The notes under the pieces: generated by a model
Seen by the model: the letters and a program-made list of their open reading frames with translations, nothing else
What the model was told of the DNA's origin: nothing
Databases searched by the model: none
Program-made: the position numbers and the translations under genes
In this document: in pieces, positions 4,772-51,670 of the stretch
Numbering within the stretch: the first letter of the stretch is position 1
Layout: every line of letters starts with the position of its first letter
NCBI RefSeq assembly: GCF_002563635.1
Contig: NZ_PDIZ01000001.1
Coordinates: forward strand, 558,001 to 622,000
DNA length: 64,000 bases
Source: Bacillus sp. es.036
GTDB lineage: Bacteria; Bacillota; Bacilli; Bacillales; Guptibacillaceae
Direction: 5' to 3'

Positions 4772-5626
4772 ATGCAACAAATAAAACAAATCGGTGATCG
4801 TTTTTACTACCAAACACCAGTATCCGAAACAGACCGACCGATTCTAGGGATGGTAGTTGGGGATGAAAAGTCGTTAATGATTGACGCAGGAAATTCAGAA
4901 GCTCATGCACGTTATTTTCTAGAGGAACTTTCAGATCGGGGGCTTAAAAGACCTGATATGGTAGCACTTACCCACTGGCATTGGGATCATATATTTGGGT
5001 TATCCGCGCTCAGAGATACGGTTTCGATTTCTTCTTTTCAAACGAAAGAAGAAATGGCTAAGCTTATTCCCTTATCATGGTCTGATGCAGATCTTGATCA
5101 GCGTGTAGAAGAAGGAACGGAAATTGAATTTTGTGCAACCGCCATCAAAAAGGAATTCGTGAATCATCGTCATATTACGATTACTCTTCCGGATCTAACC
5201 TTTGAGGACAAACTGGAAATCGATCTTGGCGGCGTGACGTGTGTCCTTCAACATGTTGGCGGAGACCATGCGGCTGACTCGGTGGTCGTCTACATAAAAG
5301 AAGAAAAAATTCTATTTTTAGGCGATTGCTTTTATCCTGATATTTTTTCTAGTAAAACCAACTATACGGTGAGGACGACAAACCAACTGCTTGATGTACT
5401 AGAAGGCTTTGAGGGCGAATGGGTGATTTTATCACACGGAGAAGCGATTCCGATTGAAGAGTTTAAGAAAGAAGTAAAGCTTTTGCGAACAGTTTCTTCC
5501 ATTACGGAAGCGTGTAGGGGGAATCAGCAAGAAATGCAACGTTCTTTCAAAGGTATCGTTGGCAGAGAGTTGAACGAAGAAGAACGTGAAGTGATTCAAG
5601 AGTTTGCAAACGGGTATAGCCTGTAA
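4772..5626 (+). CDS. MBL-fold metallo-hydrolase
   Basis: This 284-residue protein carries the metallo-beta-lactamase signature HWHWDH (H68, H70, D72, H73). Later come the expected metal ligands in GGDHAADS, the LFLGDC aspartate and the final LSHGE histidine, so a dinuclear zinc site is likely complete. The ATG follows ATGGAGG at 4759-4765. Members of this branch include thioesterase-like, glyoxalase-II-like and quinolone-signal-response-type hydrolases. Substrate is not predictable here. A small structured element precedes it at 4648-4703. Confidence 0.8.
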   Translation: MQQIKQIGDRFYYQTPVSETDRPILGMVVGDEKSLMIDAGNSEAHARYFLEELSDRGLKRPDMVALTHWHWDHIFGLSALRDTVSISSFQTKEEMAKLIPLSWSDADLDQRVEEGTEIEFCATAIKKEFVNHRHITITLPDLTFEDKLEIDLGGVTCVLQHVGGDHAADSVVVYIKEEKILFLGDCFYPDIFSSKTNYTVRTTNQLLDVLEGFEGEWVILSHGEAIPIEEFKKEVKLLRTVSSITEACRGNQQEMQRSFKGIVGRELNEEEREVIQEFANGYSL

Positions 5627-5705
5627 AAGGGTTTTTCTGGAAGGGGTTAAGGGGAAGAGTTATACTAGGTGATGGGTTAGAGGAAGTGTCATTAAAGGAG
5701 GCAGT

Positions 5706-5957
5706 ATGAAAAGTTTTAAAAAGCTGATCTATGGATGGTTTTATATCGTGAGCCCGCTTTTATATGTGATAGGCAGCGTATTATGGAAAGTTTATCTCTC
5801 AAATCTTCCGCTCTCAGAAAGTGTAACGGACACGCTTTCTATTCTCGGAATCTACTATTTCTTCATGAGTATTTTCTGGTTTTTCACTATGAACCGGGTG
5901 GAACAGGTGTCTCAAGAGATGACACATGATCAGCAACAAAAAGAGGGCTCAACTTGA
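5706..5957 (+). CDS. Small two-helix membrane protein
   Basis: This 83-residue protein has two hydrophobic segments (about residues 10-28 and 45-62) and a polar Q/E-rich C-terminus. The start follows AAAGGAGGCAGT. Its stop overlaps the TTG start of the next membrane protein by four bases, so they are coupled. I do not recognise a family. It may be a subunit of a two-component membrane assembly with its neighbour. Confidence 0.6.
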   Translation: MKSFKKLIYGWFYIVSPLLYVIGSVLWKVYLSNLPLSESVTDTLSILGIYYFFMSIFWFFTMNRVEQVSQEMTHDQQQKEGST

Positions 5958-6319
5958 AAGATTTCAACTTGCTTACATATAAAGAAGTCACAATCCGATA
6001 TGCGGTGCTGACGATTTTGCTGTCGCTTACAATCTTTGTGGTACCGTACTATTTACCGATATGGACTTATCTTGTTTGTATGGTTATTGCCATCACTAGC
6101 GTTGGGAGAACCCTTGTGAAATGGCTGCGTGGTGAGGTGAGAAAAACGTCTCTTAAGGGAGAGGTCATACGAACCTGTACAGTTTCTTTTATGGCTATTC
6201 TCTTACTAGTAACCCCGCTTCCTTATTCGATTGGGGTAAAACTGGGGATTGTTATCTTTCTATTGATTGTGAATATGTTTGAAATTATGAAGTTAAAAAA
6301 TAAGCATCAACGTTCATGA
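5954..6319 (+). CDS. Small polytopic membrane protein
   Basis: This 121-residue protein has four predicted membrane segments (about 15-30, 34-52, 72-86 and 92-110) and a basic C-terminus (LKNKHQRS). Translation probably starts at the TTG that overlaps the stop of the preceding small membrane gene (TTGA), which implies coupling. No domain family is recognised. Because the two ORFs are coupled and both are membrane proteins, a joint complex is the simplest inference. Confidence 0.55.
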   Translation: MKDFNLLTYKEVTIRYAVLTILLSLTIFVVPYYLPIWTYLVCMVIAITSVGRTLVKWLRGEVRKTSLKGEVIRTCTVSFMAILLLVTPLPYSIGVKLGIVIFLLIVNMFEIMKLKNKHQRS

Positions 6320-6414
6320 AAATAGACCTAAATCATTTGACTCATTTTTCTTAATGAATGTTTGCGATCATCACGTTTCATTTAATTGAATGGTGATAAT
6401 TTTCTAATAATACA

Positions 6415-6443
6415 TTGACATTTTGTTAAACAAAAGATATTAT
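6415..6443 (+). promoter_or_regulatory. Sigma-A promoter of the S-box leader
   Basis: TTGACA at 6415-6420 is followed by a 17-base spacer and TATTAT at 6438-6443, close to the sigma-A consensus. The predicted transcript would start near 6450, about 30 bases before the SAM riboswitch, and read through it into cysJI. Confidence 0.8.
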
Positions 6444-6481
6444 TTGAAACAATCATTGTTATCAAAACTTTATAGCAACAT

Positions 6482-6593
6482 TTCTTATCAAGAGAGGTGG
6501 AGGGACTGGCCCTTTGAAGCCTCGGCAACCGATGAGTTGAATAATCAACTCATACTGTGCCAAATCCAGCAGGTGTATCCTGAAAGATAAGAA
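6482..6593 (+). promoter_or_regulatory. SAM-I (S-box) riboswitch
   Basis: The P1 strands TTCTTATC (6482-6489) and GATAAGAA (6586-6593) enclose the S-box core. The core reads AGAGAGGTGGAGGGACTGG, then GCCTCGGCAACC, the variable P3 hairpin GATGAGTTGA/TCAACTCAT, then GTGCCAAATCC and AGCAGG. All conserved S-box blocks are present and in order. An intrinsic terminator follows at 6613-6649, so the usual transcription-off mode with S-adenosylmethionine is expected. The regulated genes are cysJ and cysI, sulfite reduction. Confidence 0.95.
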
Positions 6594-6612
6594 GATTGGC
6601 ATCGTTCTCACA

Positions 6613-6649
6613 AACCTTTCTTCTTATGCTTAAAGAAGAGAGGTTTTTT
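6613..6649 (+). terminator. Riboswitch-controlled intrinsic terminator
   Basis: AACCTTTCTTCTT (6613-6625) pairs with AAGAAGAGAGGTT (6633-6645) with one G-T wobble, followed by a run of T. It lies 20 bases after the S-box P1 stem and about 100 bases before cysJ, the normal spacing of an S-box expression platform. Confidence 0.9.
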
Positions 6650-6751
6650 ATGTGTATCTTAGAAGAGAGGAGCATGCTTCGTATTCATACGGTTTTAAAT
6701 CCGGGTAAACAACTTGTATTACATTGAATTAACTATGCGAGGTGGATTGTA

Positions 6752-8563
6752 TTGCATTTACAGGTTATGAATAGTCCTTTTGATCAAGAACAAACGGAAC
6801 TTTTAAATCGTCTATTACCAACACTAAATGAAACGCAGAAAATTTGGCTGAGCGGGTATCTTTCTGTTCCGGGAGTGGCAGAAACAGCGGCAACAACTGA
6901 AGCTCCCTCAGCTGAAGAAGCGTTCTCAAAGAATGAACCAAAAACGCGTGAAATTACGATTCTCTATGGCTCTCATACGGGAAATGGTCAGTCTCTAGCA
7001 GAATCTTTTTTTGAGCGGCTTGATCACGAAAAGTACAACGTTACGCTCTCATCCCTCGATGATTTTAAACCAAAGTCACTTAAGAAAGTAGAAGACCTTT
7101 TATTGATTACAAGCACGCATGGAGATGGAGATCCTCCTGATAATGCGCTAAGCTTTTACGACTTTATCCAAAGTAAGCGAGCTCCTGAATTAGGAGAAAT
7201 TAGATTTTCTGTCCTATCACTTGGAGATAGCTCGTATGAATTTTTCTGTCAAACTGGGAAAGATTTTGATAGACGTCTGGAAGAATTAGGAGCTACTAGA
7301 ATTTATCCTCGTGTCGATTGTGATTTGGATTTTGAAGAACCTGCGGAAGAATGGTTTGAAGGTGTCATGAGTCTGCTGTCTGATGCCCCGTCCAAGAGTG
7401 AAGCGTCACCTTCTAAGGAAGCTAGTGAAACGAATCTTTCGTACTCAAGAACGAATCCGTTTAAAGCAGAGATCTTAGAAAATATTAATTTAAACGGACG
7501 AGGATCGAATAAAGAAACGCGTCATCTTGAGCTTGATCTTGAAGGATCCAATCTCGTATACGAACCAGGCGACAGTCTGGGGATTTATCCAGAAAATGAT
7601 ACCACGCTTGTGCTTCAACTGATTGAAGAAATGAGTTGGGACCGAGACAGCCATGTGGTCATAAACAAGCAGGGAGACGTGCAGTCTCTTCAGGAAGCTT
7701 TGACGAAGACGTATGAGATTACAAGTCTAACAAAACCATTGCTTAAGAAGATTGCGGAGCTTACGGAGAGCGCAGAGCTTCTCCGCATGGTGAATGCCGA
7801 GGGAGAAGAGCTTAAGACCTACATTTACGGAAGAGATCTTATTGATTTGGTGAAAGATTACGGACCGTGGGAAATCGCTGCAGAGGATTTTGTGAAGATA
7901 CTGCGTAAAATACCAGTCCGTCTTTACTCTATTGCAAGCAGTCCGAAAGCGAGCGAAGACGAAGTTCATCTTACAATTGGGGCGCTACGATATGACGCAC
8001 ACGGTCGCGCTCGCACTGGCGTCTGTTCGGGACAGTGCGCTGAACGGTCACAGCCAGGTGATCAACTTCCAGTCTTTGTACAGCGGAACGAGAATTTTAG
8101 ACTGCCAAACAATCCCGATACACCTGTCATCATGATCGGGGCAGGTACGGGAGTGGCGCCGTATCGTGCATTTTTACAGGAACGAGAAGAAATTGGCGCA
8201 GGTGGCGATACGTGGTTGTTCTTTGGTGAACAGCATTTTGTCACCGACTTTCTTTACCAGGTTGAATGGCAAAAGTGGTTAAAAGATGGTGTGCTGACTC
8301 GCATGGATGTCGCTTTTTCTCGTGATACGGATGAAAAAGTGTATGTTCAACACCGCATGCGCGAGCAAAGTAAAGAACTATACGAGTGGATCCAAAAGGG
8401 AGCACACATATACGTATGTGGTGATGAGAAATATATGGCAAAAGATGTTCATATTGCCCTCGTTAACATACTTGAGAAGCAGGGTGGATTGAGCGAATCT
8501 GAAGCTGAAGCCTACTTATCGGATCTCCGTAACGAGAAACGCTACCAGCGAGATGTGTACTAA
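6752..8563 (+). CDS. cysJ: Sulfite reductase [NADPH] flavoprotein alpha-component
   Basis: CysJ passes electrons from NADPH through FAD and FMN to the CysI hemoprotein for six-electron reduction of sulfite to sulfide. The 603 residues show a flavodoxin domain ([12 protein letters not shown] near 69, [29 protein letters not shown]), an FAD domain with [10 protein letters not shown] and GVCSGQCAE, and a ferredoxin-reductase NADPH domain ([36 protein letters not shown]). It ends with the family's KRYQRDVY. The TTG at 6752 has GAGGTGG at the right distance; an ATG at 6767 is an alternative. It is controlled by the upstream SAM riboswitch and is followed by cysI. Confidence 0.95.
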
Positions 8564-8585
8564 CCGTGATGGAAGGAGTTTGATT

Positions 8586-10295
8586 ATGACGAATAAACCG
8601 GTAACGAAAGATGGAAAACCGAGTGAAATGGAAAAAATCAAAGATGAAAGCCGCTATTTACGGGGTTCTCTTGTGGAAAGTTTTGCAGATCCGATTACAG
8701 CCTCCATTCCCGATGCGGATACAAAGTTATTAAAGTTCCATGGAAGTTATATGCAGGACGATCGCGATATTCGTCAGGAGCGGAAGCAGCAGAAACTTGA
8801 ACCAGCTTATCAGTTTATGGTTCGCGTCCGGTTACCTGGGGGTGTTGCGACTCCGGAGCAGTGGTTAGTGATGGATGATCTGGCGAATGAATATGGAAAC
8901 GGTACGTTAAAGCTTACGACGCGTCAAACATTTCAAATGCATGGGATTTTAAAATGGAATATGAAGAAGAGTATTCAGGCAATGGATTCTGTTCTGATGG
9001 ATTCTCTTGCAGCCTGTGGTGACGTGAATCGAAACGTGATGTGTAACGCCAATCCGTATCAATCTGATATTCATGCAGAAGTGCACGGATGGGCACGAAA
9101 ACTAAGCGACGACCTGTTACCGAGAACAAGAGCGTATCATGAAATTTGGTTAGATGAAGAGAAGGTGCTCGATCGTAAAGAAGAAGAGATTGAGCCAATG
9201 TATGGGCCTCATTACTTACCGAGAAAATTTAAGATTGGTGTTGCGGTTCCGCCATCAAACGATGTGGACATTTTCTCGCAAGATCTCGGCTTTATTGCAA
9301 TTCTTGAAGATGGCAAGCTTCAAGGGTTCAATGTTGCCGTAGGCGGTGGAATGGGCATGACGCATGGCGACACAAGTACGTATCCTCAGTTGTCCAGAAT
9401 CATTGGCTTTTGTTCACCTGAAAACATTGTTGATGTGGCCGAGAAGATCATTACGATTCAGCGTGATTATGGCAATCGTTCAGAGCGTAAGAACGCTCGC
9501 TTTAAATATACAATTGATCGAAGAGGACTTGACTGGGTTCGGAACGAATTGAATACTAGACTTGGCTATGAACTAGAAGAAGCTCGTTCTTACCACTTTG
9601 ATCATAATGGCGATCGCTATGGATGGGTCAAAGGGGATGGCAAATGGCACTTAACGCTCTTTATCCAAAATGGGCGTATTGTTGATTTAGAAGATTATCA
9701 AATTATGACCGGACTATGTGAGATTGCGAAAGTTCATACAGGTGATTTTAGGTTAACACCGAATCAGAATCTTATTATTGCAAACGTAGCAGAAGAGAAG
9801 AAAGCGGAAATCGATCAACTAGTCGCTGCATACGGTCTGACAGACGGGAAACAGAATTCAGCCCTACGCCGTAATTCGATGGCCTGTGTTGCCTTCCCGA
9901 CATGCGGTTTAGCAATGGCAGAAGCTGAGCGGTATTTGCCTTCTCTTATTGATAAAATCGAGGAGATTGTGGATGAAGCGGGTCTAAGAGAAGAAGAGAT
10001 TGTGATTCGTATGTCAGGCTGTCCGAATAGCTGTTCACGTCCAACATTAGGCGAGATTGCTTTTATTGGAAAGGCACCTGGTAAGTACAACATGTATATG
10101 GGAGCCGGATTCGTTGGCGACCGATTAAGCAAGCTTTATAAAGAAAACATTGGTGAGGAAGAGATCCTTGCTTCTCTCAAACCGATCCTCTTTAACTATG
10201 CAAAAGAAAAAGAAGAGAATGAGCATTTCGGTGATTATGTGATCCGAGCGGGATATGTTGAAGAAGTGCGATCAGGACTTGATTTTCATAGTTAA
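8586..10295 (+). CDS. cysI: Sulfite reductase [NADPH] hemoprotein beta-component
   Basis: CysI contains the siroheme and 4Fe-4S centre that reduces sulfite to sulfide. The four cluster cysteines are present as CVAFPTC and GCPNSC within the conserved [20 protein letters not shown] region. The N-terminal part carries the substrate-binding [11 protein letters not shown] motif. The ATG at 8586 is preferred because GGAAGGAG lies eight bases upstream and the 569-residue product matches the family. A longer reading frame extends back to 8553 inside cysJ. It sits 22 bases after cysJ and should be cotranscribed from the S-box promoter. Confidence 0.95.
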
Positions 10296-30402: not shown

Positions 30403-30612
30403 ATGATTACGAAAAATGCAGGTAAGCTAAGTAAGGCTTATTTTAAGTCGTATATGCAACTCGTTATGAGTTCGCGAGATTTTTCTATAGAAAAGGCGAG
30501 GTCATATGCGTTTGAAGAACTTTTTCAAGGTGATGAAATGAAAAACGGTGAGGAAACGTATCAGAAATTTACACAAGCCTATGATGAACTTTCGCAAGAA
30601 GAACCGCGTTAG
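30403..30612 (+). CDS. Small hypothetical protein
   Basis: This 69-residue soluble, helical protein reads MITKNAGKLSKAYFKSYMQL at its start and is rich in E/K/Q later. ATG has the good ribosome site AAGGGGTGAGAAGTA. I do not recognise a family. It lies after the sensor kinase with 111 bases between, possibly independent. Confidence 0.55.
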   Translation: MITKNAGKLSKAYFKSYMQLVMSSRDFSIEKARSYAFEELFQGDEMKNGEETYQKFTQAYDELSQEEPR

Positions 30613-30835: not shown

Positions 30836-30848
30836 GTATGCATTTTTT

Positions 30849-31139
30849 TGAAAGGTTCCAGCGCTTGTCGGACCTACCGGGCGCTTGCGCTTTTCTGATC
30901 TAGCTCCAGCGCCCAGGTCCTCGAGACGCTTCACCTTTCACTCTGAACACAAAGGGCGTGTTCAAATTGAAAGGCTCCAGCGCTTGTCGGACCTAAACGG
31001 GCGCTTGCGCTTTTCTGATCTAGCTCCAGCGCCCAGGTCCTCGAGACGCTTCACCTTTCACTCTGAACACAAAGGGCGTGTTCAAATTGAAAGGCTCCAG
31101 CGCTTGTCGGACCTAAACGGGCGCTTGCGCTTTTCTGTA
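30849..31139. repeat. Tandem 120-bp GC-rich repeat
   Basis: Two and a half copies with a period of exactly 120 bases: a partial copy ends at 30900, a full copy at 30901-31020 and a nearly full copy at 31021-31136. The copies are essentially identical. Each contains short self-complementary blocks (AGCGCCC and GGGCGCT; GGACCT and AGGTCC). It resembles the GCGCTTGCGCTTTTCTG-type intergenic repeats widespread in Bacillaceae. A 103-codon open frame through it is an artefact of the repeat. Confidence 0.85.
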
Positions 31140-32162: not shown

Positions 32163-32204
32163 ACAGAGGGTTTCTTCAATAAAGAAGAAGGTCTCTGTTT
32201 ATTT
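32163..32204 (+). terminator. Intrinsic terminator after the DinB gene
   Basis: ACAGAGGGTTTCTTC pairs with GAAGAAGGTCTCTGT around AATAAA, followed by TTATTT. Confidence 0.75.
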
Positions 32205-32273
32205 GTTAGAAGAAAAAAGACAATAAATCTCTTTTGCTCACATATACTGCCTGTGAAAAGAGGTGGAAATGTG

Positions 32274-32873
32274 GTGGATGAAAAGCAATCATGTTCTCTT
32301 CCGAACTGTGCACAAACAAACGATCAGGCTCCTTTATTTCGAGCTGAAGCCTATGACCCGATTGAGAAGAAGATTAAAGAAATCGATCTTGCGGACTATA
32401 AAGGAAAATGGGTAATCTTATTTTTCTATACAAGTGATTTTACCTTTGTGTGACCAACAGAACTAGCAGCGGTCGCTGCTATTTATCCAGAGCTTCAAGC
32501 TATGAATACTATTGTTCTTGGAATTAGTACAGATAGCGTGTATGCCCATAAAGTTTTTACCGAGGTGTCACCAGCCGCCTCTAAAGTGAACTATCCTCTT
32601 GTTAGTGATCGGAATCATCGGATTAGCCGAGACTACCGCGTGTTAAATGAAGAAGCGGGTGCAACGTATCGAGGAACAGTTATTATAAATCCAGAAGGCG
32701 TAATCGTTTCAAAGATGATGTATCCTGTCGAGGTGGGAAGAAACGCTTATGAAATTCTTCGTCTCATGCAAGCACTTCAATATAATAAAAAAACGGGAGA
32801 AGCAGTGCCGGCAAATTGGGTGCCAGGTCAACCGGGAATCGTTCGTCGGTCAAAGTATATTGGAAGGGTGTGA
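32274..32873 (+). CDS. Peroxiredoxin with in-frame TGA at the catalytic cysteine (probable selenoprotein)
   Basis: An AhpC/2-Cys-type peroxiredoxin frame of 199 codons is interrupted only by TGA at 32451-32453 (codon 60). The context is DFTFV-TGA-PTEL, where the family has DFTFVCPTE with the peroxidatic cysteine. Downstream the frame is well preserved ([50 protein letters not shown]). A SECIS-like hairpin follows at 32464-32481, so selenocysteine at residue 60 is likely. The proline of PxxxTxxC is T53, and the usual resolving cysteine (VCP) is replaced by AVP; a C7-x4-C12 pair at the N-terminus could substitute. GTG at 32274 follows AGAGGTGG; a GTG at 32253 is possible. Confidence 0.85.
32451..32481 (+). 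promoter_or_regulatory. UGA (Sec) codon with bacterial SECIS-like hairpin
   Basis: After TGA (32451-32453), 17 bases separate the codon from the loop of a perfect 7-bp hairpin: TAGCAGC (32464-32470), loop GGTC (32471-32474), GCTGCTA (32475-32481). Bacterial SECIS elements are short hairpins just after UGA, with the loop about 16-37 bases away and a conserved G/GU in the loop. The E. coli fdhF element also presents GGUC. The match in position, stem and loop is very good. Confidence 0.8.
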
Positions 32874-32874
32874 G

Positions 32875-32907
32875 AGCTTCGGAATCAGTCCGCTGCTCTT
32901 TTTTTTA
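32875..32907 (+). terminator. Probable terminator after the peroxiredoxin gene
   Basis: GAGC-TTCGGA pairs with TCCG-CTGCTC and is followed by a run of eight T. The stem is imperfect but the T-tract is strong. Confidence 0.6.
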
Positions 32908-51007: not shown

Positions 51008-51670
51008 TTATTGATTTAAATCTTTTTTGCATAAATACCAATCAATACATTCAAGACCTTCTTCGTTTTCCCTCTTTTTCATATCTTCCTGTGTTTTAGG
51101 AGGAGAAACAAGGACCTGATCTCCTGGTTCCCAATTGGCCGGTGTCGGAGCACCGTGCTCATCCGTTGTTTTTAACGCCTTTACTAATCTCATAATTTCA
51201 TGCATGTTGCGACCGGTCGTAAGAGGATAGTAGATGACAGCTCGGACAACTTGTTTATCATCAACTACGAAGACTGCACGACTCGTTTCCGTTTGACTTT
51301 CTTCCGGCATGATCATGCCGTAGCGCGTCGCCACTTTTCGATCGAGATCAGCAATAACCGGAAATTCAATTTCGGTATCAAAATTCTTCTCAATGTTTCG
51401 AACCCATGCTAAATGTGAGGAAACGCTATCGACACTAAGGCCGATTAACTCAACATCAAGCTTTCGTAACTCAGGATAAATTTCCTGAAAAGCCACAAAT
51501 TCTGTCGTACATACCGGCGTGAAGTCAGCGGGATGCGAAAACAACACAAACCATTTTCCTTTGTAATCATCGAGTGAAAGTTGCCCGTGTGTCGTGTTGG
51601 CAGTAAAGTCAGGGGCTGGTGACCCGATTCGTGGTAGCTGATAAGCTGTTTCTGTTTGTGGTTCTGACAT
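51008..51670 (-). CDS. 1-Cys (Prx6-type) peroxiredoxin
   Basis: This 220-residue peroxiredoxin has the active site P47-ADF-T51-PV-C54 (HPADFTPVCTTEF), the family's SRAVFVVDD and the long C-terminal region with ATPANWEPGD, typical of Prx6/AhpE-like enzymes that reduce hydroperoxides. It has an extra CxxxxxC (ECIDWYLC) near the end. It is a cysteine-containing counterpart to the TGA-interrupted peroxiredoxin at 32274. ATG follows GGAGGATGTTTCAAT. Confidence 0.9.
   Translation of the reverse strand: MSEPQTETAYQLPRIGSPAPDFTANTTHGQLSLDDYKGKWFVLFSHPADFTPVCTTEFVAFQEIYPELRKLDVELIGLSVDSVSSHLAWVRNIEKNFDTEIEFPVIADLDRKVATRYGMIMPEESQTETSRAVFVVDDKQVVRAVIYYPLTTGRNMHEIMRLVKALKTTDEHGAPTPANWEPGDQVLVSPPKTQEDMKKRENEEGLECIDWYLCKKDLNQ

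Follow-up and report, generated by a model that had tools for sequence, protein, structure and literature searches.

A probable selenocysteine peroxiredoxin in Bacillus sp. es.036 and its relatives

The peroxiredoxin gene and its in-frame TGA

The window, i.e., the complete stretch of 64,000 nucleotides of Bacillus sp. es.036 DNA analysed here, contains a gene for an AhpC/TSA protein whose frame holds a single internal stop, a TGA at the codon of the peroxidatic cysteine, in the context DFTFV-TGA-PTEL (Table 1). The domain assignment (PF00578; 121.3 bits, cut-off 26) is in agreement with the original prediction of an AhpC-like frame broken at this codon only. Translation could start at either of two GTG codons, 32274 or 32271, which lie 59 and 60 codons upstream of the TGA, respectively, and both of which follow the probable ribosome-binding site. 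A scan for promoters and terminators returned nothing useful. The best 60 solved-structure matches listed comprise peroxiredoxins, AhpC and proteins named as their relatives. A structure model in which Cys was placed at position 60 reached a mean pLDDT of 85.3, with block means of 68 for residues 51–60 and 44 for residues 1–10; this model played no part in judging the recycling route. Of 94 loci searched with tblastn, 12 gave a match to the adjacent DinB gene and 15 to the adjacent methyltransferase gene (67–100% identity), and, with the neighbours retained in so few loci, no operon argument was drawn.

Table 1. Positions in the window of the predicted selenocysteine (Sec) peroxiredoxin gene and its associated features.
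Feature	Position	Strand	Remarks
Predicted Sec-peroxiredoxin coding sequence	32274..32873	+	199 residues, Sec at 60; terminal TGA included
TGA, predicted to be read as Sec (TxxU motif TFVU)	32451..32453	+	TGA in orthologues; TGT in G190
Probable ribosome-binding site AGAGGTGG	32259..32266	+	same motif 5' of the start in G008, G009 and G010
Candidate SECIS hairpin TAGCAGC-GGTC-GCTGCTA	32464..32481	+	conserved core GCAGC-GGTC-GCTGC at 32466-32479

The TGA is followed by a hairpin with a perfect stem of 7 bp and a GGTC loop, as had been predicted; the distance of 17 nt originally given for the hairpin, however, is that from the TGA to the loop, the stem itself beginning after 10 nt. A 2026 review (PMC13188914) gives as limits for bacterial SECIS elements a loop of 3–9 nt with a G in its first two positions, a stem of 4–16 bp, a UGA-to-loop distance of 16–37 nt and a minimum free energy (MFE) of -7.5 kcal/mol or lower, and the window element (GGUC, 7 bp, 17 nt and -10.6 kcal/mol over a 45-nt stretch) lies within all of these. 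By itself, the hairpin is nevertheless unexceptional (z -1.20), as 26 of 200 shuffled sequences fold at least as well; its significance derives from comparison across genomes and not from the folding of the window copy alone. An Rfam scan of positions 32200–32900 with E values up to 10 yielded three matches, none of which came near its gathering score. A SECIS model (R1) searched against the entire genome recovered the known site with 66.8 bits, along with two weak matches of 20.7 and 16.8 bits at which no selenoprotein frame was seen on the plus strand of either locus.

Two further elements of the window were recorded. A second peroxiredoxin with an ordinary Cys (DFTPVCTTE) is encoded at 51239–51628 on the minus strand, and positions 30848–31137 are taken up by 2.4 tandem copies of a 120-bp unit, with 98% matches, between open reading frames ending near 30612 and 31140.

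Selenocysteine machinery and codon usage among orthologues

The 4.34-Mb genome encodes all that is expected for Sec decoding, i.e., selA, selB, selD and tRNA-Sec, within 20 kb, an outcome for which the original prediction had called. The NCBIfam scores are 565 bits for selA (cut-off 267.9), 361 for selB (242.25) and 411 for selD (125), while the tRNA-Sec, with its UCA anticodon, scores 59.4 bits in Rfam against a gathering score of 47. The selD gene (positions 8043–9059 of this cluster, minus strand) possesses an in-frame TGA of its own (KGG-U-GCK) in all fifteen genomes of the family and serves as a positive control for the recoding of UGA in this setting. Downstream of the selD TGA lies a hairpin, TGACGCAA-GTT-TTGCGTCA, whose closing A-T pair is G-C in locus L193 and A-C in locus L189.

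Elsewhere in the genome (C3:305633–306193), an AhpC/TSA-type frame (L010:2134–2694) contains an in-frame TGA at position 2242 of its locus, in the context HLG-U-PVC (UxxC). NCBIfam relates it to SelL with 94.9 bits, below the cut-off of 120, and the loop of a hairpin, CTTACGC-AGTT-GCGTAAG, lies 25 nt past the TGA; this gene probably encodes a third selenoprotein. The genome's own formate dehydrogenase alpha gene was considered as a further source of a SECIS element and discarded, its frame being open without internal stops. The Sec cluster also holds, at positions 5607–8008 and flanked by selB and selD, a putative PhnD/PhnE/PhnC-like ABC transporter, which possibly has a role in selenium uptake.

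In a sample of 397 genomes of the order, 53 orthologues were read among the matches listed, of which 52, from 15 families and 20 genera, carry TGA at the peroxidatic codon and one (G190) carries TGT. This set excludes a broken copy in G007 and includes the G216 gene in spite of stops ahead of its conserved part. Two other matches, each flagged with one TGA, were rejected as orthologues: that of G283 (44% identity) has TGT at the site, and that of G162 (41% identity) is a true PrxU. All fifteen genomes of the host's own family returned a match, fourteen with exactly one internal TGA and the fifteenth being the broken copy of G007. Named genomes were additionally scanned using patterns that leave out the TGA codon, which returned 317 related loci, and the best 80 of these all have TGA at the site; since these loci are partly the same as those of the order sample, the two sets are not independent. 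The comparison of codons proposed at the outset thus came out in favour of TGA in both sets.

Individual loci show some irregularities. The broken Sec-peroxiredoxin copy in G007 (L026, L066), a member of the same genus, occurs in a genome in which SelA and tRNA-Sec are present. In G012, the frame 5' of the conserved part differs from that of its relatives as if shifted, and in G216 stops precede the conserved part; TGA and hairpin are kept in both.

SelA was detected (E up to 1e-60) in 181 of the 397 genomes, among them all 52 with a TGA orthologue, as compared to 129 of the 345 others (Fisher p 1.8e-20, with phylogeny ignored). On these numbers, the rarity of selenoproteins in Bacillaceae asserted in the original prediction does not apply to this group. 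As the Sec-peroxiredoxin was read in 52 of the 181 SelA genomes, other selenoproteins presumably keep the Sec trait in the rest. A tRNA-Sec above the gathering score was found in 51 of the 52 genomes with a TGA orthologue and in G007, and in none of 20 SelA-negative genomes (20 named of 216); among the 74 genomes scanned, under stricter filters, none scored above the cut-off in G045, where SelA is present, or in G190. The latter genome, which holds the sole TGT orthologue, also gave no SelA match, and the hairpin of its gene is gone, with GCAGCAATGGCCGC in its place. Within the family of G190 the gene occurs in ten of 35 genomes, nine times with TGA and hairpin and once with Cys.

These data bear on an alternative, namely that the UGA is often decoded as another residue, either through Cys carried on tRNA-Sec or through near-cognate read-through, so that the enzyme would often be a Cys-peroxiredoxin. 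The G190 orthologue, which has Cys with the rest of the protein kept, is what such a reading would draw upon. The co-occurrence of the TGA gene with SelA and tRNA-Sec and the conservation of the SECIS element argue against it, and nothing points to loading with Cys; we consider this alternative very improbable.

Conservation of the hairpin and of the protein

For the hairpin, 132 TGA sequences (52 from the order sample and 80 from the named genomes) were aligned and reduced to 100 distinct 45-nt stretches. The inner six pairs are formed in all 600 cells of this alignment; for the outer two pairs, the figure is 177 of 200 cells. Pairs 18-27 and 21-24, which in the window are A32468-T32477 and G32471-C32474 and both of which join third codon positions on either side, are never broken in the 100 sequences: the former occurs as AU (77), GC (16) or GU (7), and the latter as GC (82) or AU (18). 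For pair 21-24, which closes the loop, at least three GC/AU changes are forced by the starred branches of a tree of 59 Sec proteins. The covariation score of 0.259 (shuffle mean 0.168) and the 35 cells with two-sided changes (6.9 in shuffles) were each reached by none of 500 shuffles; two of the five measures were not unusual, the number of pairs with two-sided changes being reached by 65 of 500 shuffles and the number of pair types by 485. When the partner strand was slid by -3, 90% of cells were still paired and the covariation score was 0.100 versus 0.259, and the score dropped in all six slides. The covariation anticipated by the original prediction is therefore present, in the form of two-sided changes at third codon positions.

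Third-position entropy, computed over 106 distinct TGA sequences, amounts to 1.46–1.54 bits at codons 1–2 after the TGA, 0.66–0.79 at codons 5–8 and 0.64 at codon 9, and to 1.75–1.97 bits at the 17 sites scored from codon 26 onwards. As the scan pattern PTELAAVAA spans the hairpin region, conservation there has been selected in part at the protein level, and not at third positions. Beyond the hairpin, the protein itself is under constraint: dN/dS 3' of the TGA is 0.03–0.11 in nine of eleven pairs with the window gene, the other two being saturated, and R133, R156 and W182, among others, are invariant in 51 aligned sequences.

The possibility that the gene is a pseudogene or carries a sequencing error, i.e., that a nonsense mutation arose in an ordinary AhpC gene with a hairpin present by chance, could appeal to the unremarkable folding of the window hairpin and to the broken copy in the same genus. 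It is exceedingly improbable in view of the purifying selection 3' of the TGA and of the hairpin covariation, and a sequencing error is implausible since the same TGA recurs in so many assemblies. That the hairpin serves some other role, such as regulated termination or mRNA stability, with the truncated protein as product, would fit UGA being a stop by default and the hairpin lying inside the coding sequence, yet it is of negligible probability given the protein-level constraint through 139 codons 3' of the TGA and the absence of the hairpin in the single case with TGT for TGA. A reading of TGA as Trp throughout was rejected, as 14 of the 53 orthologues, including the window gene, end in TGA and homologues carry Cys at the site.

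Taken together, the recurrence of TGA, its association with SelA and the compensatory changes in the hairpin indicate that the window gene very probably encodes a true selenocysteine peroxiredoxin in which the in-frame UGA is decoded as Sec, as first proposed, and recoding via SelB is strongly supported by the genomic comparison. Weighing against this reading are the ordinary folding of the window hairpin, the two covariation measures that shuffles also reach, the high pairing that survives the -3 slide, the single Cys orthologue available for contrast, the lack of a tRNA-Sec above the cut-off in G045, the broken copy of G007 and a score of the protein under both the PrxU and the AhpC cut-offs of NCBIfam.

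Relation to known peroxiredoxins and proposed function

Peroxiredoxins with TxxU appear in the selenoprotein lists of PMC9312934 and PMC2398784, the former citing Sohling 2001 for the Sec-peroxiredoxin of E. acidaminophilum; PMC1794560 defines Prx by T/SxxU/C and already credits the Bacillales with three selenoproteins, and the tally of PMC5029168 gives 91 Prx proteins from 78 organisms, which may include the Bacillaceae group. Our literature search found no description of a Bacillaceae Sec-peroxiredoxin group. Sec-peroxiredoxins as such are thus established; the window gene belongs to a distinct, widespread clade among them that lies below the PrxU cut-off, lacks the resolving Cys and is usually without the motif Pro.

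With the known family the window gene shares PF00578, a peroxidatic Sec in TxxU (here TFVU, the UGA aligning with the peroxidatic Cys of homologues) and a SECIS element right after the UGA. The first motif residue is T in 106 and S in one of 107 distinct orthologues; G190 and the AhpC paralogues have Cys at the peroxidatic site. The Pro of PxxxTxxU, termed highly conserved in PMC13188914 but absent from the TxxU definitions consulted, is in contrast Thr53 in the window protein; the E. acidaminophilum Prx was compared by description only. Among distinct orthologues, 23 of 107 have Pro at this position and 84 do not, and the missing Pro is treated here as a departure within the Sec-peroxiredoxin family and not as a defining feature.

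The best NCBIfam match of the window protein is NF040737 (peroxi_PrxU, thioredoxin-dependent peroxiredoxin), with 164.2 bits against a cut-off of 270; two divergent Sec orthologues score 163.1 and 176.2 bits, and the Cys orthologue 139.8. The C-terminal resolving position lacks a Cys in PrxU (two PrxU read) as it does in the window clade, and the PrxU-type genes of G162, G114 and G300 (L166, L167 and L168) each combine a TGA with an equally placed hairpin whose loop is AGTT. They differ in having UATE and in keeping the Pro, which is mostly gone in the window clade, and PrxU and the window group form separate clades (99/97 and 99/96). PrxU scores above the cut-off in two of the 397 genomes, and G114 carries both a PrxU and a window-type gene. 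The G300 gene, which is under the cut-off, displays a two-sided change in its stem, from CAGC/GCTG to CTGC/GCAG.

The typical 2-Cys AhpC family (TIGR03137) matches the window protein with 157.4 bits, below its cut-off of 272. The AhpC paralogue of the same genome has the domain family and the DFTFV-C-PTE active site in common with it, but possesses a C-terminal Cys in CPANW where the window protein has Val. The orthologue WP_225003809.1 of Cytobacillus spongiae (NZ_CP089998.1; 67.7% identical) has the TGA and GCAGCGGTCGCTGC at matching places; its RefSeq coding sequence spans the TGA, and the table name is just 'peroxiredoxin', with the residue at the TGA not given there.

When PrxU and AhpC served as outgroups, the tree placed 59 Sec rows together with the G190 Cys row in a single clade (99/97). 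In none of 200 bootstrap trees does a branch split off the Sec rows with G190 excluded, a result in favour of a Sec-to-Cys change in G190, whose branch is however long and of uncertain placement. The table of PMC1794560, with its column order as extracted, gives no Sec-to-Cys event for Prx.

The three oddities listed in the original prediction, i.e., Thr for the motif Pro, Val where the resolving Cys usually stands and a Cys pair (C7/C12) near the N-terminus, are all present in the window protein. PANW is preceded by V in 90, I in 12, T in 4 and L in 1 of 107 orthologues and by Cys in none, and 90 of 106 distinct proteins have no Cys beyond residue 60. Of these 106, 95 have an equivalent of C12 and no more than 67 have another Cys upstream, their starts not being fixed, so that the N-terminal pair exists without being strictly conserved as a substitute for the resolving Cys.

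In the proposed mechanism, SelA, SelD and tRNA-Sec would generate Sec-tRNA, and SelB would bind the hairpin, whose R-G-U-Y loop begins 17 nt past the UGA, such that Sec is delivered and termination avoided. Sec60, for which peroxidase activity is predicted from the family, would then attack the peroxide, and the oxidised Sec would be reduced by an external thiol or a thioredoxin-like protein, possibly with occasional assistance from the N-terminal Cys that is common in the clade. Because the C-terminal resolving Cys is absent, such external recycling is our best guess. A broader proposal is advanced tentatively and could well prove incorrect: that of a lineage-wide subfamily with an architecture altered by selenium, in which the Pro is free to vary, no resolving Cys is conserved, recycling is by external thiol and, once Sec decoding is lost, Cys reversion and SECIS decay follow, as in G190.

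The gene thus stands as a well-supported selenoprotein that is shared by many Bacillaceae and their close relatives. Its hosts are presumably mostly aerobes and, if so, a selenoprotein predicted to reduce peroxides and present in at least 52 of 397 genomes of one order would be a good test case. According to PMC13188914, aerobic bacteria rarely keep selenoproteins, while PMC5029168 reports many aerobic Sec users. Owing to their covarying third-position pairs, the SECIS elements constitute a clean natural data set on SelB requirements. The hosts of the gene include cultured species, among them Alkalihalophilus pseudofirmus OF4.
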